From positions 1 through 48,232 of the IMG/VR virus record IMGVR_UViG_3300035670_000339: DNA of 48,232 nt; one strand, 5' to 3'. A program made the position numbers and the translations under genes. The notes below the pieces were generated by a model, which was not told the origin of the DNA, ran no database searches, and saw nothing but the letters and a program-made list of their open reading frames with translations. Of this stretch, positions 10,874 to 47,737 are shown piece after piece (position 1 is the stretch's first letter; every line of letters starts with the position of its first letter). The stretch comes from a virus.

Positions 10874-11577
10874 TTATAAAAGAACATGGATTTCCAGTTA
10901 TAAGCAAAGAAAAAGCGGGTAAAATACAACATTTGCAAAGACCTACGGAAAAAAATAAAACTGTTAGACATGCAATACTTACAGGTGAAACTGGAAAGTT
11001 AGGTGGATACAAAACAAGAGAAACGGGCTCACGAATGAGACTTCCTCAAAAATGGCTTAATTTATTTGCGGGAGATTACAACGAACAATATGGCACTAAC
11101 TACAAATCAGCCCCATTCAAAGTATCTGCTGACTGCTGTTACTACATGAAAGAGAAGCCCTGCGAAAATTATGCCAAAGAAACTAAATCTAAGCCTTATA
11201 TTGGGTTAATGGCTTCCGAAGGTGGACAAAGAGAAAAAGCACTTATGAAACACGGATGCAATTATTATGGCAAAACTGTAACAAGAAGCTGTCCATTTGC
11301 AATATTTTCAAGGCAGGACATATTGCAATTAGCAATTGACTTACAGGTTCAAGTTCCCGCGATATATGGAAGTATAGAGCGTAAGGAAGATGGAACGTTA
11401 TATACCACCAGGGCACAAAGAACTGGATGTTCAATGTGTGGATTTGGTATTCACATTGAAACAAGACCACACCGTTTTGACAGACTTAGGGAAGACAATC
11501 CGAACGAATGGAAATTTTGGATGTACGAAATGGGTTGGGGCAATGTATTGGACTATATAGGCATTGAGTGGCAATAA
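10867..11577 (+). pseudogene. PAPS-reductase-like protein missing its N-terminal ATP-pyrophosphatase part
   Basis: The frame reads VIKEHGFPVISKEK, FKVSADCCYYMKEKPCENYA, KPYIGLMASEGGQREKAL, AQRTGCSMCGFGIHIE and HRFDRLREDNPNEWKFW. This is the C-terminal two-thirds of phage PAPS reductase-family proteins. The usual first 100 or more residues, including the SGGKDS loop, are absent, and no ATG precedes the homologous part; the only nearby start is TTG 10933. Catalysis is unlikely without the nucleotide loop. The C-terminal cysteine pairs are intact, so a residual role cannot be excluded. Confidence 0.75.
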
Positions 11578-31534: not shown

Positions 31535-32434
31535 TTAAGCTCCTTGATTTCCAACAATACCGATAGCCGGCAATGTGCCTGCCTTATAGATGGCAATAGC
31601 GTTAAGATAAAGATTCTTTGTAGAAATCTTATCTTCGTCACTGCCAAATTCGGTATCCATGAATTTTTGGAATAATACGTTCTCATACTTTGTATCCCAC
31701 ATAAACCAAGCATTAGTATCTGCAAGGTATGTAGAATAAACCCAACTAATTCTAGGAAGGCTATTTTTTGTATTGCTTAATTCATTAGCCTTCTTATCGG
31801 AACCATATACTTCCTCAATATCCATCATGTTATAAACATGAGTCATGCCCTTATTCGGGAAAGCTTTAATCTTTCCACCGGCATGATTTTTAAAGTCTGC
31901 AAACATTTTAATCATAGTCTTATGATTCTCAGGTGTCTGCAAGCTTGAAGCAGTTGCAAGAGTATCGTTAGTTACACCGATAGCATCTATGCAAGGTCTG
32001 CTGTTTGAGCAAAGAGGAACTCCATCAGCAAGATTGGTAGCAAAAGCGTTATCCCATTCTGCAATAGCTTCTCTTTCCTCATTTTCTCTCATGGTTCTAG
32101 CAAGCTCTTTAGCTCTAGAACTCTGAATAACTCCATACAAATCATACTTAACTGATTCCATGGAAACAGAATAACCGTTAGCCCATGTCTTGTTTGTAAT
32201 AGTTGTTTGATAAGCCTGTCTTACTTTTCCGTATTGGATTGCATCGCCTTCAACCTTTTCGGAAGCAGACTGCAAGTTACCCATAGAATCGTAAGTTTCG
32301 GCTTTCTTTGTAGCTTTTTTCATAGTAACGAAATCTTTATACTCGATAGGAAACGCATCAAAGTTATCCATAAAAATTTCTTTTTGTCCGGCAACAATCA
32401 TCCTCGAAATATCTGAGGTCATAGTATAAGCCAT
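31535..32434 (-). CDS. Major capsid protein
   Basis: The 299-residue product starts MAYTMTSDISRMIVAGQKEI and contains GKVRQAYQTTITNKTWANGY, ARTMRENEEREAIAEWDNAF and VLFQKFMDTEFGSDEDKIST. Length and pattern fit HK97-fold capsid proteins of the kind annotated as Mu-like major head proteins. Its context (scaffold and decoration genes just upstream, a terminator behind) supports the call. Sequence alone would not exclude another head protein. Confidence 0.75.
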   Translation of the reverse strand: MAYTMTSDISRMIVAGQKEIFMDNFDAFPIEYKDFVTMKKATKKAETYDSMGNLQSASEKVEGDAIQYGKVRQAYQTTITNKTWANGYSVSMESVKYDLYGVIQSSRAKELARTMRENEEREAIAEWDNAFATNLADGVPLCSNSRPCIDAIGVTNDTLATASSLQTPENHKTMIKMFADFKNHAGGKIKAFPNKGMTHVYNMMDIEEVYGSDKKANELSNTKNSLPRISWVYSTYLADTNAWFMWDTKYENVLFQKFMDTEFGSDEDKISTKNLYLNAIAIYKAGTLPAIGIVGNQGA

Positions 32435-34119: not shown

Positions 34120-34481
34120 CAACTCACCCCCTTTTCAAGCCTTGTATATTCAGGGAGTATTATTGACCTTTTTTCTCTTTCATCTTTCATAATGCTTTTT
34201 GCTGTTGCTCCTGTAGCATCAACATCATATCCGCTTGCTAAATATGTACTATAGGTTATCGGTGTCTTTGTAATAGTTCCGCAATGTTTGCATATAGCCT
34301 GCCCACCTTTAGCCCAATAAGCAAGCCTTTCACAACTTCCGCATACGGGAAGTTTTGTTAAAGGAAATCTTGCTTCAATCATAGTCATGCTTCGTATTTC
34401 TTCACTTGATAACACATGATTAAGATGTTTATTACCATTAAAGCAAACCTTTATAAGCTCATTATGCTCCCGGGTATCCAC
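34119..34481 (-). CDS. Zinc-ribbon protein downstream of portal
   Basis: The 120-residue product carries KLPVCGSCERLAYWAKGGQA, then ICKHCGTITK, giving two CxxC pairs (a zinc ribbon at about 47-68). GTG 34481 overlaps the portal gene end by 20 bases. Position suggests an accessory assembly role; no family is assigned. Confidence 0.6.
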   Translation of the reverse strand: MDTREHNELIKVCFNGNKHLNHVLSSEEIRSMTMIEARFPLTKLPVCGSCERLAYWAKGGQAICKHCGTITKTPITYSTYLASGYDVDATGATAKSIMKDEREKRSIILPEYTRLEKGVS

Positions 34482-36378
34482 TCATGCCACCCCCTCCCAT
34501 TGCAGGAAGATTGCTCATAAAAGGATTACCGTTCATACTAAGCTGTGCATTTGCATTCTGATACTGCATTTGTTCGCCTTGTCCGGGTTGTTGTGCCATT
34601 CCAGGCATAGGCTGTTGAAGTATAGTATCAAGTTCTTTGTCCTCTAAAGGAATACCAACAAATTTCTTTATCAAATCTCTTAATTCTTCATAGCTTAATA
34701 TAGGTCTAGGCTGTCCCATTGCATCAATTGTCTGCATCTGAGAAAACTTCTCTATCATCTGCCATAGGAAAGCTTTATTCTTAGGTAAGCCTGCACCGAT
34801 ATTTATTTCAATATCAAGGTCAACATTCTTTGTTATAGGTTCCCCAGTCTTATCATTAGTAAGTATCTCCCACTTAGGAAGTTCACCTTCCATACCACTT
34901 TCATTAAGTCCTTGCTTGTACTTAGTCATAAAATCTATAGTTGCCGGCTTCATAGCAGGAACCTTTGTTAAATCTCTAAAATCAATCCAAACATATTCAT
35001 CCTTATCCTCTGTAAGCCTAAAAGCTTTTGCTTCGCTATAGCTATCCATCATTATACCGAGGATATATTCACACATTTCCTGCAACGTTACCTGAAGTAT
35101 TTGCTTCTTTTGGTCTGTAGAGTTATTTCCCTGCTGTTGCTGTATAGTTGCTTCTGTCGCTGTGTTAGCAGAAGTAGCTCCTTGACCTATCATCAAATCA
35201 CTAAACCTTGTTACTCTTTGAGCTTCCTCATGTATTTGGCTAAGCAATCTCCACCAGGAATCATTAACAGTTCCCCAAGGAACATAATCAACAGCTTTAT
35301 TTGTGCTAAGTCTTGCAGGTCTAGGCTCAAAACTATTCTCGTCAAAGTCTTCCAAATCAACTTCACTGTCAGGGTCAAATAATATCAAATGAGGTCTAGC
35401 GGCAATTCTTATCTTGTCGTATAGGTCATTCAATAGATTATTAAGAGGTTCAAGCAGCTTACCGTCTCCAAATCCCCAAAGCCTACCTTCCACCGGATAA
35501 AGCACAGTTATAAAGTAAGGATATTTATTATTAACATACTGATAATAAGGCTTATGCTCAAACGCTTTACCCTTTTGATTAGTTTTTCTATCTCCATCCT
35601 TGTGAGAATCGTAAAGCAATACACCGCAAGCCGTAAACTCTAATAGCCTTAATAATCCTTTATGCCTACACCATAGCTGTATAAGCGTTGCTCCGTCTTC
35701 GTCATCCTCTGTTGTATCCTCTTTAAATACTACGGTATCCTCAATATAAAATTCTCCGTAATCTATTGCATCCGCTTTCTCTTCCCCGTATATATCAATA
35801 AATTGTGTCTTACTAAGTCTTATTGCTTCTGCAATATACTCAGCTTCCTGAAGCCTTAAAACGTCTTTTATCTTACCGTCTATAAATATCCTATTAAGAG
35901 GAACACAGGTTATCTTTGTAAGTCCAAAACCACTTATAGCATCAGGCTCAAAATGTACTTTAAGCACAGCATTTCCAAATTTAATCCTTCTTCTCTCATG
36001 CTGGTCAAGTACTTTCTTTATATAGTTTTTCCTGAGAGTAAATTCAAGCCCAACTCTTGCAAACTCTGAATAGTTAGCATCGGAAGGGCTTTCTCCTCTT
36101 GTCATTACTGCAATATTCTGGTCGATTATATTAGCTACTTGTCCCTCAATGTTGGCATTCATTATATTTATCCTGGTGTTAGGTCTGCCATCTACCTTAT
36201 CCTGCTCACCTTGATAAGCAATCTCTATCTTTTCCCACTCGTCATATAAGTCGGTTAAATGCCCTTTATTTGTATTTATCTTAGATATATAATCGTTAAC
36301 CATCTTCATTTCGTCTTCGTTCATAAACTTATCACGCCGATAAGTCTTATCTTGCTTAGATATAACCTTTTTCGCCAT
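34462..36378 (-). CDS. Portal protein (P22-like group)
   Basis: The 638-residue product forms the dodecameric DNA gate. Recognisable segments include RPNTRINIMNANIEGQVANI, RRRIKFGNAVLKVHFEPDAI, GRLWGFGDGKLLEPLNNLLN and ATSANTATEATIQQQQGNNS (the usual glutamine-rich helix region). The C-terminal tail is Gln/Met/Gly-rich. It is separated from terL by about 9.6 kb, which is unusual. ATG 36378 follows GAAGGTGAG. Confidence 0.8.
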   Translation of the reverse strand: MAKKVISKQDKTYRRDKFMNEDEMKMVNDYISKINTNKGHLTDLYDEWEKIEIAYQGEQDKVDGRPNTRINIMNANIEGQVANIIDQNIAVMTRGESPSDANYSEFARVGLEFTLRKNYIKKVLDQHERRRIKFGNAVLKVHFEPDAISGFGLTKITCVPLNRIFIDGKIKDVLRLQEAEYIAEAIRLSKTQFIDIYGEEKADAIDYGEFYIEDTVVFKEDTTEDDEDGATLIQLWCRHKGLLRLLEFTACGVLLYDSHKDGDRKTNQKGKAFEHKPYYQYVNNKYPYFITVLYPVEGRLWGFGDGKLLEPLNNLLNDLYDKIRIAARPHLILFDPDSEVDLEDFDENSFEPRPARLSTNKAVDYVPWGTVNDSWWRLLSQIHEEAQRVTRFSDLMIGQGATSANTATEATIQQQQGNNSTDQKKQILQVTLQEMCEYILGIMMDSYSEAKAFRLTEDKDEYVWIDFRDLTKVPAMKPATIDFMTKYKQGLNESGMEGELPKWEILTNDKTGEPITKNVDLDIEINIGAGLPKNKAFLWQMIEKFSQMQTIDAMGQPRPILSYEELRDLIKKFVGIPLEDKELDTILQQPMPGMAQQPGQGEQMQYQNANAQLSMNGNPFMSNLPAMGGGGMSGYPGA

Positions 36379-36406: not shown

Positions 36407-36440
36407 ATAAAAAAAGCCACCTCGAATTTAATCGGGTGGC
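36407..36440 (-). terminator. Terminator between sugar cassette and portal
   Basis: On the reverse strand GCCACC (36435-36440) pairs with GGTGGC (36416-36421) and is followed by TTTTTTTATT. It marks the end of the inserted cassette; portal expression requires read-through. Confidence 0.75.
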
Positions 36441-36452
36441 ATCAATGTGCTC

Positions 36453-36629
36453 TTATTGTTTGCTATGTATTATATAATTCTTCTTGCATGAAGGACATCT
36501 AACATCAATCTCAACATCGGAAGTCTTATTATAACTACTGCTCTTTTCAATCGTTAGATTGTCAGTATTATTAATTCCTATCATCCTAATCTTACAGTAT
36601 GGGCAATATAGCTTATTAGGTCTATTCAT
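36453..36629 (-). CDS. Com-like zinc-ribbon small protein
   Basis: ATG 36629 follows AAGGTGAATAAAG and gives 58 residues, with KLYCPYCKIRM near the start and VRCPSCKKNYIIH near the end. Two CxxC pairs about 35 residues apart resemble Mu Com-type zinc ribbons. It overlaps the preceding gene by 8 bases, inside the operon. It may regulate translation or bind RNA (inference). Confidence 0.6.
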   Translation of the reverse strand: MNRPNKLYCPYCKIRMIGINNTDNLTIEKSSSYNKTSDVEIDVRCPSCKKNYIIHSKQ

Positions 36630-36840
36630 ATTCTTTATTCACCTTTCTAAATTTGCCTGCACTTTTACTTAATAATCCTTCATGATTACGATACTTCTCA
36701 TATGGGTCTATTTTATCTTCTAACGCTTCTTTTTCTGTCGGACAATATAAAACTATGCCCAGCATAATAAAAACGCTTACAAGTGAAATGAACAACGCTA
36801 CAAGAGAAATCACGATAGATACTATGCTTGTGTCACTCAT
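36622..36840 (-). CDS. Single-pass membrane protein at the end of the sugar cassette
   Basis: The 72-residue product starts MSDTSIVSIVISLVALFISL. A strongly hydrophobic helix (about 5-32) is followed by a charged cytoplasmic-type tail. Its start overlaps the upstream gene by 8 bases, so it is part of the cassette. It could anchor the sugar enzymes; no family is recognised. Confidence 0.55.
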   Translation of the reverse strand: MSDTSIVSIVISLVALFISLVSVFIMLGIVLYCPTEKEALEDKIDPYEKYRNHEGLLSKSAGKFRKVNKEYE

Positions 36841-37537
36841 TTAAATTTACCTCCGCTACAATATCTACTAATTTGCTTCTGAATTGATTCCTAAGGATAT
36901 TAGCATTGCTTGTTATGCAATGTCCACCTTTCTTTCCTTCCGGTGGGATTAATATGTATCTGCAATATTGAGGCATTCCCATATCAGAGTATAAAGCGTT
37001 ATAGCATCCGTTATAAGCATTTACCTTGCTAAACTCCATTCCTATGCCTTTGCATACATCATTTACATATCTGGCATATTCAATCATAAGCCCGTAGTTT
37101 GTAGTAGACTGTAGCTTTAAAAATTCTGTATGCTCAGAAGCTTCAAGCACATATGGAAGCTTTCCGGCTTGTACAAAGAAATCATAAGCAATCCTATTGT
37201 ATCCTCCGATAAATACCTGCCATTTGCTTATGCTTGTAGTAAGGTCAGGATGTTTACCTTCTATAGGCACATGAACAGCATCCTTAAGCTTAGATGTGGT
37301 TCCAACAGCTACAGTAGAAAATATTATCTTTGCTTTAGCTTTAAACTTCTGCTGATATTCTGAAACTATTTCAATAAAATTATCCGAATAAGGTATAGTA
37401 ACAAGCATTACATCATATTCTTCAAACTCTCTAGCCTCATAATCAATATCAACACAATCTATTAAATGAACATTGGAGTAAACATTATATATAGCCTGTC
37501 CTATCTGTCCTTTACTGCCTATCAATACACATTTCAT
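36833..37537 (-). CDS. Miniature UDP-sugar-dehydrogenase-like protein
   Basis: The 234-residue product has a Rossmann start MKCVLIGSKGQIGQAI, then DVMLVTIPYSDNF, and IIFSTVAVGTT. The central-domain helix LEASEHTEFLKLQSTTNYGL (Lys141) and PPEGKKGGHCITSN (Cys207) match the catalytic Lys and GGHC Cys of UDP-glucose/UDP-ManNAc dehydrogenases. Family members usually exceed 400 residues; here the C-terminal sugar-nucleotide domain is missing and the NAD domain is compressed. The role may be sugar oxidation, or a derived function. ATGA overlap with neuA. Confidence 0.6.
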   Translation of the reverse strand: MKCVLIGSKGQIGQAIYNVYSNVHLIDCVDIDYEAREFEEYDVMLVTIPYSDNFIEIVSEYQQKFKAKAKIIFSTVAVGTTSKLKDAVHVPIEGKHPDLTTSISKWQVFIGGYNRIAYDFFVQAGKLPYVLEASEHTEFLKLQSTTNYGLMIEYARYVNDVCKGIGMEFSKVNAYNGCYNALYSDMGMPQYCRYILIPPEGKKGGHCITSNANILRNQFRSKLVDIVAEVNLNE

Positions 37538-38154
37538 ACTTGACCTCCTCGGGCTCTATATTCCAACAAAGCTTCTGCAATCCTCATATCATCCATAGTA
37601 TCAATATCAATACTACGGCTTAATGGCATTTCAAACTCAATTACAGTATTATCCCATAGTTTACCTTGTTCTATAAGTTCACGTTTAGCAATAAAAATTG
37701 CACCATTACGTTGAAAGTGTTTTTCGCTAGTGTGTTTGTCATATACTTTGTCTTTGTGTTTAATGCCTATGTAATAACCGCTATAAAGACTGTTTGCGCC
37801 TGATTCTTCAAATATTTTTATAGCATTGTCTATGTCTTTTGTTGTGCGTAATGGTGATGTAGGTTGTAACAATACCACAACATCAACATATATGTGGTTT
37901 TTAGATTCATAATGCCTTATGGCATCCTTAACAACATCTATCATAGGAGTGTCGTCTTGACACAAGTCACTTGGTCTTTTGTGAACGTAGTATCTTCCAA
38001 TATACTTTTCAATATCAGTTGATATCACATAATCGTCAATGTATTCAGAATTCAAGAAAGTCCACTCAATCAATGGCTTACCTGCTATTGGATATATATT
38101 CTTATCCTTTATTCCTTTGCTACCTGCTCTTGCCGGAATTATTCCAAGTATCAT
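37534..38154 (-). CDS. neuA: CMP-nonulosonic acid (sialic acid) synthetase, NeuA-like
   Basis: The 206-residue enzyme would couple a nonulosonic acid to CTP, forming the CMP-activated sugar. Diagnostic motifs are IPARAGSKGIKDKN (6-19), LLQPTSPLR (95-103), QRNGAIFIA (148-156) and SIDIDTMDDM (181-190, metal-binding acids). A lipopolysaccharide KdsB-type enzyme is less likely by these motifs. AAGGAGAGG precedes ATG 38154. It is coupled to a 53-residue ORF upstream and the dehydrogenase-like gene downstream. Confidence 0.85.
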   Translation of the reverse strand: MILGIIPARAGSKGIKDKNIYPIAGKPLIEWTFLNSEYIDDYVISTDIEKYIGRYYVHKRPSDLCQDDTPMIDVVKDAIRHYESKNHIYVDVVVLLQPTSPLRTTKDIDNAIKIFEESGANSLYSGYYIGIKHKDKVYDKHTSEKHFQRNGAIFIAKRELIEQGKLWDNTVIEFEMPLSRSIDIDTMDDMRIAEALLEYRARGGQV

Positions 38155-38281
38155 AATCCTCTCCTTGACCAATCTTAAATAAATAATAATTGTCATCTAC
38201 ATATCTTATATATTCATTAAATTTTCTTTGTTCATCAGTCATATGAGTGCTTGCAATATTCAAACAATTATTATCGTTCAT
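38120..38281 (-). CDS. 53-residue ORF between neuC and neuA
   Basis: ATG 38281 follows GGAGGTT and overlaps the neuC stop (ATGA). The product begins MNDNNCLNIASTHMTDEQRK and overlaps the neuA start by 35 bases. The coupled junction argues for translation. No family is recognised. Confidence 0.45.
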   Translation of the reverse strand: MNDNNCLNIASTHMTDEQRKFNEYIRYVDDNYYLFKIGQGEDYDTWNNSGKSR

Positions 38282-39306
38282 AGTTCAACCTCCGCTAAGA
38301 TATTTACAATCTTCTCGGAAGCTGTTCCATCGCCGAAGTAGTTAGAAGGTTTATAAGTTTCATGTTCTTGCTTTGCCATAGACCCGACAATCATATTAAA
38401 ATTAAGGTCTGAGCATAAAACATTGCAATCCATTTCTCTTTGAAACTGTCTACTCCCAACAATAACCGAAGGTGTTCCAAGGAAAGAAGCTTCTTTTATA
38501 AATGAACTACTGTTGCCTACACACATTTTTGCATTGTGTATAAGCCTTGCATATTTATAAGTCGGTACATTCTTTTGAAACTCCCAATTTGTACTATGCA
38601 ATTTATGTAATATATCCATATGCCCAGCATCTACGTTTGGATTTATCCATATTTTTTTAGTATTAAAGCAATTGCAAGCATCAATTATAGGTTTAATATC
38701 CTCAGATTCAGTTGTATTAGGATGAAATAACACCAAGATATGTCCATTAATTAGTCTGGATTCTTGACGAATTTCTTTTATATAATCTAAAGCCGTTGAA
38801 CCTACTGTAAAAACTCCACCCAAATTACCCCAAGCTCTACCTGTTATATTACATACTTTATCTTTAGCCATCTTTGTAACGGGAAAATGAATGTCAGCTA
38901 ATGTAGTTATAGCATTCCTTACCTTATCGTCTATACAGCCTGTTACCTCTCCACCTTCCGTATGTGCAAGCGGTATATTCATATAAGCTGCTGCTTGTGC
39001 TACAGCTAATACTTCATATCTATCGCCATGCACAAGCACTATGTCAGGCTTAAGCCTTTGCAATTCCATAGATACTTTTGTAAGCAATATTCCAGTTGTT
39101 AATGCCATGCTTTCGTGGTCATCAGCATTGATTAAGCATTGTATTCTTGAAGCTACAGGATATTCTACATCAGCATTATAAAAAGACGCTCCTAGAATCA
39201 ATTGTAATTCTAGTGCGTCGTGTTCTTTTATTGCTTTACATACGCTTCGTAATCTTCCCCAGTTTGCTCTGCTCCCTGCAAAAACGGCTATTTTTCTTGT
39301 GCTCAT
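38278..39306 (-). CDS. neuC: Hydrolysing UDP-GlcNAc 2-epimerase, NeuC-like
   Basis: The 342-residue enzyme would release a 2-epimerised sugar (ManNAc or its 2,4-diacetamido analogue) from a UDP-sugar, the entry step of nonulosonic acid synthesis. Signatures are FAGSRANWGRL (9-19), VLVHGDRYEVLA (91-102), AHTEGGEVTGCIDDKVRNAI (114-133), ADIHFP (137-142) and CVGNSSSFIKEASFLGTPSV near the C-terminus. Length is near the family's usual 370. AAGGAGATGCCT precedes ATG 39306. Confidence 0.85.
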   Translation of the reverse strand: MSTRKIAVFAGSRANWGRLRSVCKAIKEHDALELQLILGASFYNADVEYPVASRIQCLINADDHESMALTTGILLTKVSMELQRLKPDIVLVHGDRYEVLAVAQAAAYMNIPLAHTEGGEVTGCIDDKVRNAITTLADIHFPVTKMAKDKVCNITGRAWGNLGGVFTVGSTALDYIKEIRQESRLINGHILVLFHPNTTESEDIKPIIDACNCFNTKKIWINPNVDAGHMDILHKLHSTNWEFQKNVPTYKYARLIHNAKMCVGNSSSFIKEASFLGTPSVIVGSRQFQREMDCNVLCSDLNFNMIVGSMAKQEHETYKPSNYFGDGTASEKIVNILAEVEL

Positions 39307-39323
39307 AGGCATCTCCTTTATTT

Positions 39324-40154
39324 TTAATAGCTCCAATTTCTAAGCCAATAATCTATTTCGTTCATGCTTGCAACACACGCTACAGCGTTTTGCTTTAGAA
39401 TAGCAAGCTCTTTATTCTTCTTGTCTATTCCATCTTCCATCTGCTTTAATCTATTGTCTAATTCTTTCTTTCGATTCTTCATCTTTAACCTTACTTGATT
39501 GTCTGTTTCAAAGCCGTATAATCCGGCATTCTTCATTAAATCAGATTCGGGTGGTAAATAAAATTTAATCCCTAATCCTTCTGCAATACCTATAAAATAT
39601 TCACATGACGGTCTTTGAGCTTGATATTCCGAATTAGTAGCCATGTCAACACCATATATATGGATCTCTTTATATCCCATATACATTGCCATAGCTATCA
39701 TCCAAGATATGCTATTCGTAAAATACTTATATCCTATATATCCTTTATCTTGCATCCATTGCATTATCTCATCCTTAGGAAATCTAATGCTTGGCGGAAT
39801 ATCATCGTAATGCTCCCACATATACACAGGCACCGGACAATTCTTTAAAAAGTTTTGATGTTCTGCGTTATTCTTACTAGGCGAATCTTTGCTATGTATT
39901 TCAAACCATCTATCTGCTCTTGTGCCTGGAGTCTTTTGCATATACTTATAAAACTCATTCAAGCACCATATCTCTGCATCTGCATCCTGCCAAGGCGTTA
40001 AATTCCAATTAGGTGCAAATCCCACGATATAACACTTGTCCTTGAATCGCCTATATTCAGGCTTCATTTCATTTACTTCTATTACTTTCTCGTTTGATTC
40101 TTCTGATATGTCCTGCATAGCTTCCGTATAAGTTTTGGGCTCTTCGTTACTCAT
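39324..40154 (-). CDS. DUF115/GT42-like protein, candidate sialyl-type transferase
   Basis: The 276-residue product has KCYIVGFAPNWN near residue 40, WCLNEFYKY, then YFTNSISWMIAMAMYMGYKE followed by IHIYGVDM, and GLGIKFYLPPESDLMKNAGL. This order (GxxPS-like start, substrate loop, helix plus IYGVD strand, IKxYxxPxS) resembles both MptE/DUF115 proteins and GT42 sialyltransferases. Next to neuB, neuC and neuA, transfer of the CMP-activated sugar is an attractive but unproven role. The C-terminal coiled coil (KKELDNRLKQMEDGIDKKNK) is extra. Its ATG overlaps the neuB stop (ATGA). Confidence 0.6.
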   Translation of the reverse strand: MSNEEPKTYTEAMQDISEESNEKVIEVNEMKPEYRRFKDKCYIVGFAPNWNLTPWQDADAEIWCLNEFYKYMQKTPGTRADRWFEIHSKDSPSKNNAEHQNFLKNCPVPVYMWEHYDDIPPSIRFPKDEIMQWMQDKGYIGYKYFTNSISWMIAMAMYMGYKEIHIYGVDMATNSEYQAQRPSCEYFIGIAEGLGIKFYLPPESDLMKNAGLYGFETDNQVRLKMKNRKKELDNRLKQMEDGIDKKNKELAILKQNAVACVASMNEIDYWLRNWSY

Positions 40155-40879
40155 ATTGTCCTCCATCTTGTTTTATATTTTTCGATACTTGATATGTAGT
40201 TTCTTTGTTCTGCAAGCTCTCTGAACTCGTCTGGTGTACTTGAGAGGAAATGGTCTTTTCCCGGCAAATATTTTCCAAGTGTGAAATGCCTTTCCACACA
40301 TCCCATTCCGGATTCGATTGCTTTTTTCGCTGCTCGCAAATCTTTCGTATGGTCGCTAAATCCATCGAATAACATCATCCTTTCAAAATCTATATCATCA
40401 TAAGCCGTGGGATACTTCGACACGCAATACAGGAAGGAATGCTGCCTATAAGAGCTCCGTATTTTATTGAGATTATTGGGCGAAATCATCCCACAGCTAA
40501 TGAACATATGAGAAAAATGTCTGTCACAAAAATCTAGTAGCTCAAAATTGTCAGCATCGGATGAAGCAATCTTTACTTCTTTGCATCCCACGTTGTATAT
40601 AAGATGTGCAGAATCTATATCAAAGGCAGTAAATAAAGGCTTAATGCCATAGATATAACAAGCACGTATAATAAAAAGGTGGTCTTCTCGTGAGAGCTCC
40701 ACCTTTTTGTAATATTCTTTCATCTTTTCATGATTTGGATATTCTTTGTTTAGATTATCAGCTTTGAAGGTCTGGAATTTGATGTAATCAATCCCTATTT
40801 CCGCAAGCTGTTTTATGCCTTCCTCAATTAAGTCTCGCGAACCTAAATGATTACAGCAGAAATCGGCAATAATATTCAC
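40151..40879 (-). CDS. neuB: Nonulosonic acid synthase, NeuB-like, TIM barrel only
   Basis: The 242-residue enzyme would condense PEP with the aminosugar. Motifs: IADFCCNHLGS (4-14), YIKFQTFKADNL (32-43), KIASSDADNFELL (103-115), YCVSKYPTAYDDI (151-163), FDGFSDHT (171-178) and CVERHFTLGKYLPGKDH (194-210). NeuB proteins usually have about 340 residues with a C-terminal SAF (antifreeze-like) domain; this one stops after the barrel. That domain normally reaches into the partner subunit's active site, so activity or oligomerisation must differ. The GTG start at 40879 has only a weak ribosome site, consistent with a rebuilt 5' end (see repeat 40845-41161). Confidence 0.8.
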   Translation of the reverse strand: MNIIADFCCNHLGSRDLIEEGIKQLAEIGIDYIKFQTFKADNLNKEYPNHEKMKEYYKKVELSREDHLFIIRACYIYGIKPLFTAFDIDSAHLIYNVGCKEVKIASSDADNFELLDFCDRHFSHMFISCGMISPNNLNKIRSSYRQHSFLYCVSKYPTAYDDIDFERMMLFDGFSDHTKDLRAAKKAIESGMGCVERHFTLGKYLPGKDHFLSSTPDEFRELAEQRNYISSIEKYKTRWRTI

Positions 40880-41161
40880 GGATTTCTCAACCTCGCTTTC
40901 ATTCCCATATTCCTAGTTTTTTAAATTTTCCATCATCATCAAACTCAAAAACAACACAAAATCCATTATAGCCTTCTATTTTTTCTTGTGATTTAGCTTC
41001 AAGATATACCTTGTTGTCTGAGTCTAACTTGCTTTCAATTCCAAATCCTTTAAATAAGCTTATTAATTTTTCATAATCCTTCATGGGTTCACTGACCTCT
41101 CTTTTTTATTTTAATTGTTTAATAATAAACATAAAATGATTATAGCAGAAATCGGCAATAA
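40845..41161. repeat. 28-bp imperfect direct repeat flanking a small gene
   Basis: Bases 40845-40872 and 41134-41161 match at 27 of 28 positions. The first copy encodes neuB residues from about position 3 on (IADFCCNH); the second encodes IADFCYNH in a short orphan frame (41106-41171). The small 40899-41084 gene lies between them. The layout indicates insertion or recombination at the start of neuB with duplication of its 5' codons. Confidence 0.85.
40899..41084 (-). CDS. 61-residue protein inserted at the neuB 5' end
   Basis: The product starts MKDYEKLISLFKGFGIESKL and ends VVFEFDDDGKFKKLGIWE. It is acidic with an alpha/beta pattern and resembles small cargo proteins often seen in gut Firmicutes, but I cannot name a family. 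GAGAGGTCAGTG is upstream of ATG 41084. It lies between two copies of the neuB start sequence, so it is probably a late arrival. Confidence 0.55.
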   Translation of the reverse strand: MKDYEKLISLFKGFGIESKLDSDNKVYLEAKSQEKIEGYNGFCVVFEFDDDGKFKKLGIWE

Positions 41162-41171
41162 GGCTAGTCAT
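41106..41171 (-). pseudogene. Orphan N-terminal fragment of neuB
   Basis: ATG 41171 overlaps the stop of the upstream gene and reads MTSLIADFCYNHFMFIIKQL before stopping. Residues 4-11 match the start of the NeuB-like protein. This was probably the original, translationally coupled neuB start before the 40899-41084 segment interrupted it. Confidence 0.7.
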
Positions 41172-41529
41172 TAGTAATCGACCGCCTTTCTTTGTATTGA
41201 CTTTTGCTTAAATTTACAGCAAAATCAAGCAATGCATTAATATTTTCTATAATCCAGTCCTCTTCTTCGCTTGAAAACTCTACACACTTATTACATAACC
41301 ATATTTTGTCATGTATACCCCATTTATAAAAACTACTTAATATCATTCTACGTACAAGAGTTATAAATTCCTTCATGTTGATTTCACTTGTAAATACGTC
41401 AATATTAATTTTTTTGCCTTCGCTATAACATTCTTTTACTCTGCCAGCAACTAAAAAACTTGAATACTTATCAAGTGAAAAATTATTGTAATATTCTTCC
41501 GTATATTCCTTATCTTTAACTATTATCAT
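41164..41529 (-). CDS. Unrecognised protein in the sugar cassette
   Basis: The 121-residue product starts MIIVKDKEYTEEYYNNFSLD and contains KIWLCNKCVEFSSEEEDWII. It is coupled by ATGA to the dehydrogenase gene upstream. Only two cysteines form a CxxC pair. Function unknown; it could be a cassette accessory factor. Confidence 0.55.
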   Translation of the reverse strand: MIIVKDKEYTEEYYNNFSLDKYSSFLVAGRVKECYSEGKKINIDVFTSEINMKEFITLVRRMILSSFYKWGIHDKIWLCNKCVEFSSEEEDWIIENINALLDFAVNLSKSQYKERRSITND

Positions 41530-42293
41530 TCATGCACCGCCTTCCACCATTCTATAGCTTTGTTCGCTATATATATGTCGGTAGATTCCCTAGCTTCTAT
41601 ACTATTACCGGCAATATGAGGCGTTTGAATAACATTAGGGAAAAATATTAGCCTATCTTCTTCAAAATCATCAGCATAATAATTGTCTTCTCCTGTTTTT
41701 TGTAACCAATTAATTAACGCATTTTTATCAACTATTTCCGGTCTGCTAGTATTAATAAGTAATGTGCCAGGTTTCATTAATTCAAAATAAGTTTCTCCAA
41801 TCATTCCTTTTGTGCTTTCATTTAGTGGGACATGAAGAGTTATAATATCATATTGTTCATTCCAAAAATGCTTAACATCTGCATTTATTGCCGTATAATT
41901 CATCCCAAAAGCTCTTGCGTATTCAGCAACCTTTTTCCCTATCCTTCCGAATCCAATAATTCCAATTGTCTTATCATTCAACTGCATACGCTTCATCTTA
42001 GCCAATTGTAATATCAAACTCCATGTATGCTCAGCCGTAGAAGTAATCTCACGTCCTTCATTTTGCTTCCATGTATCGTCAAGATATATAACGTTTGGTG
42101 ACTTAACATGGTCTATGCCTGTGCAAGGACAAAACACAGTAGCATTTGTAACAACAGGAGTTAGCTGTGTATAAATAGCTGTAAAATCTGTTGTATATTC
42201 GCTTTCATTTGGCATAACAAAATCAAATACAGCTTCAAAAATTTCCTTTGCCTTATTGCAAGGCTCGTCTACTAATAATAGCTTAGGTCTCAA
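41526..42293 (-). CDS. D-isomer 2-hydroxyacid dehydrogenase
   Basis: The 255-residue product has the NAD-binding GIIGFGRIGKKVAEYARAFG (111-130), NTSRPEIVDKNAL (Arg184 region) and TPHIAGNSIEARES (His226) of the 2-hydroxyacid dehydrogenase family. The usual length is about 310-330; the N-terminal substrate domain is shortened. It heads the sugar cassette and may modify a sugar precursor or supply a keto/hydroxy acid for it (inference). AAGGAGGAG precedes ATG 42293. Confidence 0.85.
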   Translation of the reverse strand: MRPKLLLVDEPCNKAKEIFEAVFDFVMPNESEYTTDFTAIYTQLTPVVTNATVFCPCTGIDHVKSPNVIYLDDTWKQNEGREITSTAEHTWSLILQLAKMKRMQLNDKTIGIIGFGRIGKKVAEYARAFGMNYTAINADVKHFWNEQYDIITLHVPLNESTKGMIGETYFELMKPGTLLINTSRPEIVDKNALINWLQKTGEDNYYADDFEEDRLIFFPNVIQTPHIAGNSIEARESTDIYIANKAIEWWKAVHE

Positions 42294-42355: not shown

Positions 42356-43234
42356 TCACCTCTTCCATCTAATCTTCTTTATATAAAACGTAGGCTCTGC
42401 ACCTCCGTTGTATACTTTTTTAATTGTAACTTTGCCTGTCCTAATTTTTTGAACAACATTTGTTATATACGATATTGTGCTTACGACAGGCGTTATTGTA
42501 GCACTATATACCATACTTACTCGTGCGTAAGTATTAGCAATTAAAGTTTTTATTATCGACCTTGTAATACTTGCTGACGATTTTGCATTGCCTGATATAG
42601 TCTTTGTTATCGCTTTATATATGCTTCCTGAACAATCAGCCATACCAGAAATAATCTTGCTTACTCTCCGCACAATACTTGATGTTATGCTTATGCTTGC
42701 TGACAATATCTTACCCGTAGTCCTTACAACACTCACGGAAGCATCTGCTCCACCTGATAATATTTTTCCTATGCTACGTATAATACTTCCAGAAGCTTTT
42801 GTAGTAGCTGTTAAAGTCTTAAAATAACCCTTGCCATATATCATGCTCCCAAGAATTGAAACATTAGCAATTAAAGTTTTTGTTATTGACTTTACAATGT
42901 TTCCTGACACTTTTATATTGCTTGATATTGCTTTAGATATATCTTTTGATATGCTCACCGAGCCATCAACTATGCCAAAAATAATCTTGCCTACGCTACG
43001 TATAATACTTGATGTTATGCTCATGCTTACTGATAATATTTTGCCTATGCTACGTATAACGCTTGCCGAAGCTTTAGCAGTAGCTGTTAAAGTTTTATTT
43101 GTTGTAGAGCCTCCACTTGCAGGATTATAAGTAAATAACCCACCCGAATCCCATACGTCACAATTCGTACTGGTAGGTGCATCAATAGTGGTAATACCCC
43201 CACTGTCCCATATTTTTGCTCCTGTCACAGCCAT
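42356..43234 (-). CDS. 18-residue-repeat surface protein
   Basis: The 292-residue product has a short head (MAVTGAKIWDSGGITTIDAP, NCDVWDSGG) and then about 11 tandem 18-residue units such as TLTATAKASASVIRSIGK and ILSASISITSSIVRRVSK, each ending in K. Units 1-5 and 6-11 are near copies, showing a larger internal duplication. The end KKVYNGGAEPTFYIKKIRWK is non-repeated. The alternating small/hydrophobic pattern suggests stacked beta strands of a fibre, though some segments could be mistaken for membrane helices. Next to the G8/beta-helix spike, a virion surface role is likely. Confidence 0.6.
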   Translation of the reverse strand: MAVTGAKIWDSGGITTIDAPTSTNCDVWDSGGLFTYNPASGGSTTNKTLTATAKASASVIRSIGKILSVSMSITSSIIRSVGKIIFGIVDGSVSISKDISKAISSNIKVSGNIVKSITKTLIANVSILGSMIYGKGYFKTLTATTKASGSIIRSIGKILSGGADASVSVVRTTGKILSASISITSSIVRRVSKIISGMADCSGSIYKAITKTISGNAKSSASITRSIIKTLIANTYARVSMVYSATITPVVSTISYITNVVQKIRTGKVTIKKVYNGGAEPTFYIKKIRWKR

Positions 43235-43248
43235 GTATTACCACTCCC

Positions 43249-45039
43249 TTATGCTTCTGTTTTCGTTATGTCATCTATATAGATATACCATGCAGTACTT
43301 CCCTTAACTACAAGTAACTCAAGCGTTATAAATCCTGCACTTGTCGTTGTACCAAGACTCAAAGATTTGCTTGTCCACGTCGTATCGGAAGCAGGCAGAA
43401 TATCATACTCCGTTGTTTCACTAAGCCCATGCCCATCAGTACCCTTCATTATTCTCAACTTTGCCTCGGCTCCCGTGCTTGTAGAATCCTTATAACTATA
43501 TAAATCAATCGTTATCGCCTTGCCACTCGTTACGTAGAATGTTCTAGCAAATGCAGATATTGGCATTGCAACCTTAACAGCATTGTTACAATAGCATTTT
43601 AAAGACGGTGCGGCGGTTCGATATACTGTAGAATCATTTTGTAACAAATTACCTGCCATATAAAACCTATTATCGCCAACAGTACCATTATAATTTGTAA
43701 AAGTTGCACTTCCAGAATTATTAGTTGCATAAGATACCTGAGTTGTGCTTGATAGGTTGCTCGTTTCTATTACTTGTCCTCCCGCTAGTATATCAGCGGT
43801 AGTATTGTTAGAAGCCGTCAAAGACTTTATTCTTAGCGGATAAGCCGCCTTAAAGTTAACGCCGTAAGTCGAGCAATATTTAATCGTTGCTGTATTAATT
43901 CCGCAATTAGTTCCACTTAAGTTACTTATGCCCGTACCTATTCCTGCACCATTAACTCCTGATATTTTTAAGGTATCAATTTCAATACCAACGCCTCCGT
44001 TAAGTTCTATAGCATTACCGCTTGTAGAATATATGTTTGCATTAGTTACCTTCGTGAAGGCATACGAGGTTCCACCAAATCCGGTTGTCGAACTAACCGA
44101 ATTAAGTGTTGTTATAGTATTATTAGTCCCAGAACTTATGTACAAACTAGTATTATCATCGTTGTAAGAGTTAAGAGTATCTATATTGTTGTTTGTCGAT
44201 ACTGTACAACGATAGCACTTATAACAACTTATAAATGCTAAATTTGTTGTGCTTAATGTCGTTGAACCAATTTGTACACCATTTTGTATGCCATCCCCAA
44301 GATTATTGAACATAACATAGCTTAAGGTATTCTGATTGCTTCCAGTCGCCGCAAGTGAGAAATAACTAATATAACTATCCGAATAATTTTTGACTTGAAT
44401 ATTCTGAGTCATATTCATTACAAAATGACCACTCGTCTTATTATTGCTTAATGTACCAGTCAAAGCAACGCTTGTACCGCTTGAATATCCTGCGGCAATT
44501 AATAATTCTTCAGTTTTTGTCCTGTCCGTCTCATCCACAAGTATAATAATATCGCCTGCTCGCCAACCTGTAGCATCAGCAACGCTTATTGTCGGGTCTG
44601 TATCTGCTGTAACATTACCTGCAAGCGTAGTACTCATTGTTTTGCTTGCCCCAAACCAACTTACTTTTCCTGTGTTCGGAACCGTAAAAGAAAATTCTTT
44701 AGCCGCCAAGCTATCTGAATAATTAATCTTAATATCGAATGTTCTGGCAGCTGCCAATCTATTACTACTGTCGCCAATTTTAAACTCCCCACTGCTGCCT
44801 ATACTTATATTCCCCTTCAAAGTAAGCGTGTAATCACTTGCAATATTATAAGGCACATCAAGCGTTCCTGTAATAGTAAGTGCCGTACCGCTATCCGCCC
44901 CAATAACTATATTTTGGTCTACAGTGACGGTATGACCGCTTGCTATCGTTGCAGTATCACCTTCACCCGGAACTGCTCCACCTGTCCATGTTGCAGTGGC
45001 ACTCCAGTTCCCGCTTCCAGCACTTGTTATAGCCGACAT
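43249..45039 (-). CDS. G8-like, beta-helix virion spike/adhesin
   Basis: The 596-residue product starts with a G8-like module (GSGNWSATATWTGGAVPGEG, then DTATIASGHTVTVDQNIVIG) followed by a long beta-helix rich in N/T/S (residues about 150-440) and a C-terminal beta-sandwich (ITIDLYSYKDSTSTGAEAKL, then TAWYIYIDDITK) resembling a carbohydrate-binding domain. It likely binds or cleaves a surface glycan. Its ATG overlaps the 45039-45482 stop (TAATG). It is the second spike-like gene after 28525-30552. Confidence 0.7.
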   Translation of the reverse strand: MSAITSAGSGNWSATATWTGGAVPGEGDTATIASGHTVTVDQNIVIGADSGTALTITGTLDVPYNIASDYTLTLKGNISIGSSGEFKIGDSSNRLAAARTFDIKINYSDSLAAKEFSFTVPNTGKVSWFGASKTMSTTLAGNVTADTDPTISVADATGWRAGDIIILVDETDRTKTEELLIAAGYSSGTSVALTGTLSNNKTSGHFVMNMTQNIQVKNYSDSYISYFSLAATGSNQNTLSYVMFNNLGDGIQNGVQIGSTTLSTTNLAFISCYKCYRCTVSTNNNIDTLNSYNDDNTSLYISSGTNNTITTLNSVSSTTGFGGTSYAFTKVTNANIYSTSGNAIELNGGVGIEIDTLKISGVNGAGIGTGISNLSGTNCGINTATIKYCSTYGVNFKAAYPLRIKSLTASNNTTADILAGGQVIETSNLSSTTQVSYATNNSGSATFTNYNGTVGDNRFYMAGNLLQNDSTVYRTAAPSLKCYCNNAVKVAMPISAFARTFYVTSGKAITIDLYSYKDSTSTGAEAKLRIMKGTDGHGLSETTEYDILPASDTTWTSKSLSLGTTTSAGFITLELLVVKGSTAWYIYIDDITKTEA

Positions 45040-45482
45040 TATACCGTCACCTCCTGCCCGAAATAGTTTGTCAAAGACTCGCTATCGTTACTGCTTATCC
45101 ATATATCAATCATTGCAGTAATACTAGACAACCAATCCTCAAACTCGCCCGAAGTCATGCTTGCGTATACACTAAACACCTTACTAAGTATCTGATAAGG
45201 TGTCGTAACATCCGCATATAGGTCAATCCAGTCACTATCCATGACTGCCTGTGTTATAATGAGCGTCCACCCAGTAGCAATGGTATATTCAACTTTGACG
45301 TAATCTTGGATTAACTCATGAGTTGTTGCAAGTGCTTCAATATCGCTTAACTTCTGCCCTAGATATGTTTCTTCATTATCGGGAACCGAATATATCTTAG
45401 TAAATTTTCGTCCTGTCGGCGTAGTATACTCGACAAGGATTTTATCATCATATCGCTTTGTTATCGTATTTGTCCACGGCAT
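45039..45482 (-). CDS. Unrecognised virion-associated protein
   Basis: The 147-residue product starts MPWTNTITKRYDDKILVEYT, with a beta-rich N-terminal half and a helical C-terminus (SKVFSVYASMTSGEFEDWLS). It lies in a string of surface-protein genes and is coupled to the spike gene. It may be a spike adaptor; no family is recognised. Confidence 0.5.
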   Translation of the reverse strand: MPWTNTITKRYDDKILVEYTTPTGRKFTKIYSVPDNEETYLGQKLSDIEALATTHELIQDYVKVEYTIATGWTLIITQAVMDSDWIDLYADVTTPYQILSKVFSVYASMTSGEFEDWLSSITAMIDIWISSNDSESLTNYFGQEVTV

Positions 45483-45494
45483 ATACTCACATCC

Positions 45495-45881
45495 TTAAGC
45501 TTGGTCAAAGACTGCATTAATCGTAAATGCTATGCTATCCGCTACATTGAGACTAATGCCTGTAAATGTCCCTCTCAAAAAAGCATTAGCAGTTGTTGAG
45601 CTTGAATCAAACAAGCATACTTCCGATATCGTGCCTGAGCTTCCGGAACAGGTAATTGTGCCTGTTACTCTATATGTATCAAGCGTAGTGTTTGTGTCAG
45701 CGTTTGTTGATGTGCCTGTTACATAGCCTTCTGCTCTTGCTGTCTCTAATCCAGCATCTGTCGAAGCTGCTGCTGTTGTCCCCGTTCCCCATCCGAGATA
45801 TTTCGGCTCTGTTCCGCTCCCCATAAGCCTATCCGTTACTATCTGTAAGCCTCTGTTAACTACTACTACCGTATCAGCCAT
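45495..45881 (-). CDS. Small tail-fibre/virion structural protein
   Basis: The 128-residue product starts MADTVVVVNRGLQIVTDRLM and has KYLGWGTGTTAA, TYRVTGTITCSG and AFLRGTFTGISLNVADSIAF. This beta-rich pattern recurs in small phage tail or spike-collar proteins. AAAGGAGG precedes ATG 45881. Confidence 0.55.
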   Translation of the reverse strand: MADTVVVVNRGLQIVTDRLMGSGTEPKYLGWGTGTTAAASTDAGLETARAEGYVTGTSTNADTNTTLDTYRVTGTITCSGSSGTISEVCLFDSSSTTANAFLRGTFTGISLNVADSIAFTINAVFDQA

Positions 45882-46037: not shown

Positions 46038-47420
46038 TCACCCCTTGTTTAATAGCTTTATTTTACCTTCTTTTTCCATTTGTTTGATTTGGTAATCTTT
46101 GAAGCCTTTAAGCCTAAGCTCTCCGGCTGAATATATGCCACCAATCTTATAATTAAGCTCTGTCTCTATTTTTGGTCTAGGTCTACTCATAAGCCCATAA
46201 CGTAAGCTATCTGTAGTATCTGTAATATCATGCGGCTCTGTTGCTGCATCCTCAGGCTTATGCTCGTCATAGCAAAGTTGCGGCAAATGCTTGATAAGCT
46301 GTTGGCAATTATCAAATATCTGTAGATATGGCATCTTATCCGGACTATCAGCCAAAAACTCATGTACACGCTGCCATCCGACTACTCTAGCATTATCAGC
46401 CTTAACACATGGTACGCCATTTTTGGCGAATGTCTCAGCTATACTCTCGCCATATAAGCTGTCAGTGCCTCTCTTTTGCCACATATCAGGTGAAGCAACA
46501 GTGTATGTTATATCCTCGTCACCTGTCATATCTTTGATGCGCTTAGCAAGCTCTGAGGCTATAGTTTGATTAATTACAAGCTCTCGATATATATAGATAT
46601 GTTGGTCATAGCAAGCATACCAATATACTGCCGTATTATCGTTATAGCCAAAGTCAATGCTTCGAAATCGCTTCCACTCTTTCGAAAGCTCAAAAGGCTT
46701 GATAACATGCTTATCATGTCTAAATTCGCTGAACATTTGCCCTGCAAAGACGTTCCAATCTCCGTATAAGTGAGCCTTTTTCATGTCTTCCGGTAGATTT
46801 TCCAAAGCTTCGATATATTCCGGATTGTTTTCTAATAATATTGTATTATCGTAAACTTGAGCCGGAATAAAGATGTAATCCTCAGCTTTTTCTTTATTTT
46901 TGTATTCCTTATCGATAAACAAACGCTTGAACCAAGCGTGACCAACATTGCCGGGATTTGATGTGTAATACATCCTAGGCTTAAAATCTGTCCTAGTTGA
47001 GCGGTTACAGGTTATAAAAAAGTCTCTCATGCTCTCTGTAAAATGTGTAGCTTCCTCCATGCCTATAACGTCATATTCTTGTCCTTGATACTGGTAAACG
47101 TCAGCCTCATTGTCGCAGTAACCAAGCTTAATCCGGCTACCGTTAGGGAAAAGGAAAGCTTTTTCCGTATCCTTATAAGTTGCTATCCCGTACAACTCAC
47201 CCATAAGCGGTATAACATGATTTTCTCTAAGTTCTGGTAAAGTTCTACGCAATAGTAATAATTTTAAGCCTGAGTAATTTAAGGCAAGCAATACAAATTT
47301 TCTTCTCATTGCCCAACTTTTACCTCCGCCTCTTGCACCTCCGTAAGCTACGTGGCGAGTATTAGACGTAAAAAAAGCCTCCTGCTTAACATTAGGCTCT
47401 CCTTTAAGCTGTAATATCAT
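46038..47420 (-). CDS. terL: Terminase large subunit
   Basis: The 460-residue packaging motor has the ATPase Walker A AYGGARGGGKSWAMR, Walker B/catalytic YDVIGMEEATHF and coupling motif MYYTSNPGN, followed by an RNase H-like nuclease with RSIDFGYNDNTAV and a C-terminal DITDTTDSLRYGL acidic site. It cuts concatemeric DNA and drives it through the portal. ATG 47420 is preferred because AAGGAG lies 8 bases upstream and it overlaps the terS stop (ATGA). Confidence 0.95.
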   Translation of the reverse strand: MILQLKGEPNVKQEAFFTSNTRHVAYGGARGGGKSWAMRRKFVLLALNYSGLKLLLLRRTLPELRENHVIPLMGELYGIATYKDTEKAFLFPNGSRIKLGYCDNEADVYQYQGQEYDVIGMEEATHFTESMRDFFITCNRSTRTDFKPRMYYTSNPGNVGHAWFKRLFIDKEYKNKEKAEDYIFIPAQVYDNTILLENNPEYIEALENLPEDMKKAHLYGDWNVFAGQMFSEFRHDKHVIKPFELSKEWKRFRSIDFGYNDNTAVYWYACYDQHIYIYRELVINQTIASELAKRIKDMTGDEDITYTVASPDMWQKRGTDSLYGESIAETFAKNGVPCVKADNARVVGWQRVHEFLADSPDKMPYLQIFDNCQQLIKHLPQLCYDEHKPEDAATEPHDITDTTDSLRYGLMSRPRPKIETELNYKIGGIYSAGELRLKGFKDYQIKQMEKEGKIKLLNKG

Positions 47421-47737
47421 TTTGCCCACTCCTTAAGCTGTCCAGTTAATACAACTTCTAAAGTGTGGTTATTATTACTTTCTATATCTAAAGATTGAGC
47501 AGGCTTTCCATATACTCTATTAAGCACAACTTCTACAGCTTGCATAACTATCTTATCATTATCAGATGTGTTAATAATTTCCGTAAGCCTTTCTATCGCT
47601 CTAGGTACTAAGCCTGTTAAAGCTTCCTTTATTTCTGGCGGGATAGGTTTTCTCCCTCCGCTTTTGTTGCCTTTTTCAAAAGGTCTTCCCCTTAGCTTTT
47701 TAACGTTTACATTGCGAATTTCGCTAGTTTCTTCCAT
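47417..47737 (-). CDS. terS: Terminase small subunit-like protein
   Basis: The 106-residue product has a basic N-terminal stretch KLRGRPFEKGNKSGGRKPIP and a helical domain EALTGLVPRAIERLTEIINT, then AVEVVLNRVYGKP, typical of short terS/DUF5681-type proteins that recognise phage DNA. AGGAGGTGAGGAT precedes ATG 47737; a longer frame starting at TTG 47806 has no ribosome site. It is coupled to terL. Confidence 0.7.
   Translation of the reverse strand: MEETSEIRNVNVKKLRGRPFEKGNKSGGRKPIPPEIKEALTGLVPRAIERLTEIINTSDNDKIVMQAVEVVLNRVYGKPAQSLDIESNNNHTLEVVLTGQLKEWAK

Follow-up and report, generated by a model that had tools for sequence, protein, structure and literature searches.

The stretch of DNA examined here, hereafter the window, is the whole of IMG/VR record IMGVR_UViG_3300035670_000339 (positions 1 to 48,232; 48,232 bases), which derives from a tailed phage. 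Its early side encodes a tyrosine integrase, DnaB and a replisome organiser, and its minus strand encodes terL, spike, portal, the major capsid protein (MCP) and an SU10-type adaptor. Between the terL and spike genes and the portal gene, this strand carries a cassette (36833-42293) of candidate genes for making and transferring a nonulosonic, that is sialic-acid-like, sugar. The order of transcription is hadh (2-hydroxyacid dehydrogenase), g121, g61, neuB, GT (glycosyltransferase), neuC, an open reading frame (ORF) of 53 amino acids (aa), neuA, a UDP-glucose-dehydrogenase-like (UGD-like) gene, g72 and a 58-aa ORF (Table 1).

Enzymes and layout of the cassette

A first-pass annotation, made from the letters alone, had proposed NeuC-, NeuB- and NeuA-type enzymes with intact motifs, a DUF115/GT42-like transferase, a UDP-sugar-dehydrogenase-like protein and a 2-hydroxyacid dehydrogenase, mostly translationally coupled and placed on the late strand between the terL/spike genes and portal. 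The placement is correct, and profiles and alignments confirm the three Neu-type enzymes, in which loss of catalytic residues was not seen. NeuC clears the curated NCBIfam equivalog cut-off (TIGR03568, 255.1 versus 235.9 bits), and its second PDB relative is a LegG-type enzyme. Its residues D105, E127 and D136 (numbering of the 352-aa ORF) align with the catalytic Asp/Glu/Asp of the family, which we take to be D100, E122 and D131 of NmSiaA. Among relatives D105 and D136 are invariant, and E127 is replaced by Gln in L009 and L058.

NeuB is recognised by PF03102 (5.2e-40; 137.9 bits, cut-off 22.1) and falls below the NCBIfam N-acetylneuraminate synthase equivalog cut-off (140.1 versus 399.65 bits). 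H177, H198, K103, S106, Q36 and D209 are invariant in the alignment of relatives and match H215, H236, K129, S132, Q55 and D247 of NmNeuB (1xuu), presumably its metal and substrate residues; two positions differ, with E25 and N184 of NmNeuB replaced by D6 and S154. NeuA matches PF02348 (CTP_transf_3; 1.5e-16, 61.3 bits, cut-off 22.6), and its profile finds NmNeuA (1eyr) at 1e-39, with 6ifd also aligned. The protein carries the motifs ARxxSKG, QPTSPLR, NGAI and SxDID and stays below the specificity equivalogs (PseF, 77.7 versus 205.7 bits).

The proposed transferase is borne out as GT42-like by both profile and fold. With a 68-sequence GT profile the only convincing PDB matches are GT42 sialyltransferases (Cst-II, E 3e-4). 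When the AlphaFold2 model (pLDDT 88.6) was compared with the PDB by Foldseek, all 16 matches at E<=1e-3, which are also the best 16, were GT42 enzymes (E 4e-6 to 4e-4, prob 1.00), and a Maf glycosyltransferase appeared at rank 24. Because TM-scores against GT42 enzymes are modest (0.4-0.5), the protein is called GT42-like rather than a GT42 member. It shares two weakly matched GT42 motifs (IxGxxPS...NxFY and A-I-x-x-G-[YF]-K-E-I-x-x-x-G-[VI]-D), and in the alignment its N70 falls on NQFY, a motif of Cst-II. H91 is invariant among relatives, RWFEIH and QRPS are conserved motifs of the family's own, and a long helix (224-278) forms the C-terminus. The nearest matches in a viral-structure search are unnamed phage proteins. 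One relative was found in 50,697 phage records, and a pattern scan of 84,980 GTDB genomes gave one (L151, a Bacillota metagenome-assembled genome), distant and without evident phage context; the GT family is nearly virus-only.

The 2-hydroxyacid dehydrogenase is confirmed by 2-Hacid_dh_C (6e-33), with a readable Rossmann GFGRIG and the R, E and TPH of D-2-hydroxyacid dehydrogenases. No close relative of hadh was found at 1e-25 in 398 Bacillota genomes. As the gene occurs in every covered relative (see below), it is probably part of the sugar pathway. The UGD-like protein does have the UDP-glucose-dehydrogenase fold (AlphaFold2 pLDDT 87; top PDB fold matches UGDs, 1e-9), but it gives no Pfam match and has only 234 aa, compared with 377-461 aa in the matched UGDs (TM by target 0.36-0.48). 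A glycine-rich N-terminus, E-x-x-K-L and GHC are conserved in 9/9 aligned sequences. The chain ends shortly past GGHC, and since the C-terminal UDP-sugar-binding domain is thus missing, this protein need not use a nucleotide sugar.

Translational coupling is real. ATGA overlaps join hadh to g121, neuC to the 53-aa ORF and neuA to the UGD-like gene, and longer overlaps join neuB to GT (16 nt) and the UGD-like gene to g72 (8 nt). The GC content of the cassette is that of the rest of the genome. Within it, neuB and GT (39324-40879) have a third-position GC of 0.36-0.37 versus 0.25-0.28 in the other cassette genes, as though both genes had been swapped together in one block, at whose edge lies the duplicate of the neuB start. 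In L053 (3355-4154), partial copies of the neuB start likewise precede neuB and are followed by a putative endonuclease-like ORF, where the window has g61; insertion or recombination has occurred repeatedly at this spot in the window and L053. The idea that g61 is a detached SAF domain was rejected, as it has no SAF match and an unrelated sequence. Elsewhere in L053 (7131-7607), a PspA/IM30-like gene lies between neuC and neuA.

Table 1. Features of the cassette and flanking landmarks in the window, by position
Feature	Position	Strand	Description
MCP	31535..32434	-	major capsid protein; phrog_371 1e-12; possible acceptor; closely followed by the GT gene in sister phages
portal	34462..36378	-	downstream landmark and lineage marker; phrog_156 5e-14
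terminator-like hairpin + T7	36409..36440	-	-15.6 kcal/mol on folding; between cassette and portal
58-aa ORF	36453..36629	-	CPYC/CPSC, zinc-ribbon-like
g72	36622..36840	-	small, hydrophobic N-terminus; overlaps UGD-like gene; homologue in L050
UGD-like	36833..37537	-	234 aa; short UDP-glucose-dehydrogenase-fold protein; GGHC motif kept
neuA	37534..38154	-	206 aa; CMP-nonulosonate cytidylyltransferase; likely start ATG 38154
53-aa ORF	38120..38281	-	links neuC and neuA; ATGA overlap with neuC stop
neuC	38278..39306	-	342 aa; hydrolysing UDP-GlcNAc-type 2-epimerase; likely start ATG 39306
GT	39324..40166	-	280 aa; GT42-sialyltransferase-like (DUF115/MptE-like)
neuB	40151..40879	-	242 aa; nonulosonate synthase catalytic barrel; SAF domain absent
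g61	40899..41084	-	61 aa; between scar and neuB
28-nt duplicate of neuB 5' end	41134..41161	-	96%; recombination or insertion scar
g121	41164..41529	-	121 aa; ATGA-coupled to hadh; no family match
hadh	41526..42293	-	255 aa; D-2-hydroxyacid-dehydrogenase-type; PF02826 (2-Hacid_dh_C) 6.2e-33
spike-like genes	42356-45881		upstream of cassette
terL	46038..47429	-	upstream landmark; phrog_979 1e-50

Conservation and association with head genes

Comparison with related phage genomes revealed a conserved cassette. A portal-profile scan of viral contigs gave 40 loci, a few of them near-duplicates (28 portals, window included, are distinct at 95% identity), and gene content was counted in the 24 loci whose sequence extends 6 kb or more upstream of portal. 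Both hadh and neuA occur in 24/24 of these covered relatives, neuB in 23/24, neuC in 22/24 and GT in 21/24, and a methyltransferase (11/24) and the UGD-like gene (8/24) are less frequent. The cassette is core to this portal lineage and not a chance insertion. In the portal relative L154, the 4.9 kb available upstream of portal contain no cassette, which may be further up or absent. Mantel correlations between pairwise portal distances and the distances of hadh, neuB, neuC and neuA are r 0.69-0.76 (p<=0.0005), against 0.60 for GT and 0.32 for MCP; the cassette shares its history with portal. In close pairs, dN/dS values of 0.03-0.25 for cassette genes and ~0.1 for portal indicate purifying selection.

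The terminase gene behaves differently. A terL search gave 46 loci and recovered the cassette in only one (L009), because terL has been swapped in this lineage. L051, L052, L053 and L056 have a terminase of a different type despite a common portal and cassette, which indicates that terL is exchanged while the cassette stays. In L051 an HNH-type ORF lies beside a split terL, and in L009 (8891-11293; same contig as L155) terL is interrupted in frame, directly behind Walker A, by an intein-like insert that matches LAGLIDADG and Hint. A single-sequence NeuB search of viral contigs returned nothing; portal and alignment queries succeeded. No portal match was found in 50,697 phage records, in GTDB (pattern scan) or in 299 Bacillota genomes, and the two scans of cellular genomes recovered no prophage relatives.

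In many relatives within the portal lineage, the GT gene lies outside the cassette, 0.6-2 kb downstream of MCP and before the spike/adaptor genes. A comparable placement recurs in a second, unrelated group with HK97-type portal, protease and capsid, where GT is 0.8-1.7 kb downstream of MCP in 22/22 loci showing both. Many of these phages encode a SAF-containing NeuB, an SDR and NeuA between terL and portal. Among GT loci of at least 10 kb outside the portal lineage, NeuB was found in 12/36 and NeuA in 10/36, versus 0/32 control loci drawn from terL relatives. NeuC was not found in the HK97-type GT group, so its sugar precursor may differ. In three HK97-type loci with GT (L122 3686-4960, L124 and L143), a transketolase-like gene and an SDR stand beside neuB/neuA, a gene set hinting at a different sugar.

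The NeuBs of the portal lineage are short (~232-271 aa), compared with open frames of 293-563 aa for 42 Bacillota NeuB matches. In a maximum-likelihood tree, the 17 cassette NeuBs form one group (support 100/100), next to which branches one SAF-less Bacillota NeuB of 274 aa, followed by all other bacterial and phage NeuBs; L070, labelled among the cassette rows in this tree, belongs to the HK97-type group. The SAF-less cellular protein, encoded beside NeuA in a surface-glycan-type cluster of the GC-rich Bacillota genome G103 (L266 9819-11290), is the closest cellular relative among those found. Because it branches next to the cassette NeuBs, the tree points to an old acquisition of the phage enzyme from a cellular glycan cluster. 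Given the G103 protein, SAF-less NeuB is not regarded as exclusive to viruses.

Among the neighbours of the cassette, a 596-aa spike-like protein has a G8 match and a weak beta-helix match. The window also encodes, at 42356-43234, a long protein of short imperfect repeats (SASVIRSIGKILS-like), perhaps fibre-like, and a similar one lies upstream of portal in L154 (3191-4666). Small head and spike proteins contain ~27% Ser+Thr, a figure that has no control and is not used as evidence. A PAPS-reductase-like gene (10933-11577; phrog_424, 5.6e-21) lies among the early genes. Neither tRNA nor Rfam RNA was found in the window, and promoter-like sites there are at chance level (57 versus 54.6), so no promoter claim is made.

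A proposed virion-glycosylation pathway and its alternatives

Our favoured interpretation, which we consider reasonably probable, is that the cassette is a self-contained de novo CMP-nonulosonate pathway whose transferase glycosylates a phage virion protein as part of the head-building module. The substrate of NeuC would be host UDP-GlcNAc or, in a host that makes it, UDP-diacetylbacillosamine, and its product an N-acetylmannosamine-type sugar, from which the SAF-less NeuB would form a nine-carbon acid with phosphoenolpyruvate. NeuA would then turn this acid into a CMP sugar, and the GT42-like enzyme would transfer it, to the presumed benefit of the phage, to what is most likely a head or spike protein, probably one of the head. 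Further tailoring of the sugar, or the supply of a substituent, probably falls to the hadh product and, in some members, to a methyltransferase or the UGD-like protein. A virion acceptor is preferred mainly because the placement of GT after the capsid gene repeats in two capsid lineages; a glycosyltransferase gene tied to structural genes, as in phage virion-glycosylation systems, is present here.

NeuC, NeuB and NeuA suffice for the synthesis of CMP-N-acetylneuraminic acid from UDP-GlcNAc, and an N-acetylneuraminic-acid-type product would be the most parsimonious sugar. With UDP-diacetylbacillosamine supplied by the host, the product could instead be legionaminic acid. Judging from the epimerase, which is of NeuC rather than PseG type, the pseudaminic-type sugar also entertained by the first-pass annotation is unlikely. 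PseG, the hydrolase for pseudaminic acid, belongs to another family, and no PseB/C/H/G-like gene was found among the cassette proteins searched. The presence of hadh, methyltransferase and UGD-like genes suggests a modified derivative.

A more far-reaching proposal can be put forward tentatively: capsid sialylation may be a core, probably essential step of morphogenesis in a large uncultured tailed-phage lineage, with a parallel origin in HK97-type phages, and may employ a near virus-only GT42-like branch, joined in the first of these lineages by a NeuB that lacks SAF.

Several observations weigh against the favoured interpretation. The SAF domain (PF08666) is present in 0/17 cassette NeuB records at E<=10, the window protein stopping after the barrel, and the SAF domain of NmNeuB supplies an active-site arginine. 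GT reaches no Pfam cut-off (PF06002, 13 versus 25 bits, a remote GT42 similarity), and the counterpart of the catalytic His of Cst-II was not located in the GT alignment. The portal profile behind the conservation counts was seeded mostly from cassette-bearing phages. Furthermore, the hairpin at 36409-36440, bulged, spotted by eye and missed by a strict scan, suggests that the cassette transcript may stop before portal rather than being co-transcribed with it.

The main competing explanation, which appears unlikely although it carries the most weight among the alternatives, is that during infection or lysogeny the sugar goes onto the host surface (O-antigen, capsule, teichoic acid or flagellin), thereby blocking superinfection or re-adsorption to debris. 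The cassette nevertheless belongs to the structural module and is universal in the covered lineage, unlike a moron, and no polymerase or flippase gene was recognised in it, even though surface-modifying phage glycosyltransferases are well known and the acceptors of GT42 and Maf relatives are cell-surface glycans or flagellin. Similarly, the location of the closest cellular NeuB in a surface-glycan-type cluster fits a host acceptor, whereas the placement of GT behind MCP, seen in many relatives and again in the HK97-type group, does not. The window phage has an integrase, which also fits this explanation; however, among nine near-full-length genomes (records that may be incomplete), all with the cassette, four encode a tyrosine integrase, one a large serine recombinase only and four neither. 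Because the cassette is kept in integrase-less genomes, lysogenic conversion alone is insufficient, and the accessory, non-core status of a lysogenic-conversion moron was not observed, the cassette being core in 24/24. Strand and position suggest that it is expressed late. The earlier claim of decoration rather than lysogenic conversion stands in part: a core cassette near the capsid gene, retained without integrase, favours virion decoration over pure lysogenic conversion, and the acceptor may be the particle or, less probably, the host surface. The accompanying idea of shielding from an animal host is unsupported, as nothing ties these phages to animals.

The remaining explanations are weaker still. 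Single neuA or neuB genes are reported from viromes and phages as viral auxiliary metabolic genes (AMGs) (PMC3877843, PMC5332604, PMC10653327), but it is improbable that the cassette merely boosts or alters host nonulosonate metabolism, with no dedicated viral acceptor, given that the pathway is accompanied by a GT family of its own and that cassette and portal diverge in step. Use of the CMP sugar for DNA or another internal modification is very improbable: glycosyltransferases hypermodify DNA in other phages, as cited in PMC12619734, but GT resembles sialyltransferases rather than DNA glycosyltransferases, and no hydroxymethylase or base-modification gene was found among the early proteins searched. 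A decayed or hitchhiking cassette is hardly credible. The 28-nt neuB-start duplicate and the small inserted ORFs do record recombination here, but the frames and motifs are intact, purifying selection is evident and GC is genome-like. The assembly chimera raised as a caveat by the first-pass annotation is excluded, because many contigs show this layout independently of one another.

If the virion-glycosylation pathway operates as proposed, a whole phage group synthesises a sialic-acid-type sugar de novo and incorporates it into its virions as a core feature, which would extend phage glycobiology beyond single glycosyltransferases. It would also provide a near virus-only candidate sialyltransferase family, minimal NeuB enzymes and a natural test of how negatively charged sugars on a virion affect adsorption, stability, aggregation and recognition.

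Relation to known glycosylation systems

Neither virion glycosylation in phages nor the occurrence of isolated neuA or neuB genes in viruses is new. The new element appears to be the conserved head-module NeuB-NeuC-NeuA-GT system, of which no report was found in the open-access full-text literature, a coverage that leaves out most subscription papers and all preprints. In mycobacteriophages, glycans have been shown on virions and glycosyltransferases are phage-encoded (Freeman et al. 2023, described in PMC12619734). The window resembles them in its phage-encoded glycosyltransferase and in a probable glycan on a capsid or tail protein, and differs in also encoding a complete predicted nonulosonate sugar-nucleotide pathway. 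Viral neuA/neuB AMGs, as well as phage DLP4, whose lysis module contains a NeuB-like gene (PMC6469090), provide individual enzymes of the route, in contrast to the head-module cassette described here.

Giant viruses encode near-autonomous glycosylation, including a putative Kdo pathway in CroV (PMC9614988). They share with the present system the viral encoding of both nucleotide-sugar synthesis and transferases, but they are eukaryotic viruses with other sugars, whereas the cassette belongs to a tailed phage of ~48 kb. The transferase shares its fold and two weak motifs with GT42 sialyltransferases such as Campylobacter Cst-I/Cst-II and the Pasteurella sialyltransferase 9c08, and departs from them in falling below the Pfam cut-off, in its extra C-terminal helix and in its own RWFEIH and QRPS motifs. 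Finally, the bacterial sialic/legionaminic acid pathway (Neisseria SiaA/SiaC/SiaB; LegG/LegB/LegF) comprises the same three enzyme families in one operon with intact motifs, while the cassette is distinguished by its location in a phage structural module, its SAF-less NeuB, its near phage-only GT and its universal 2-hydroxyacid dehydrogenase.

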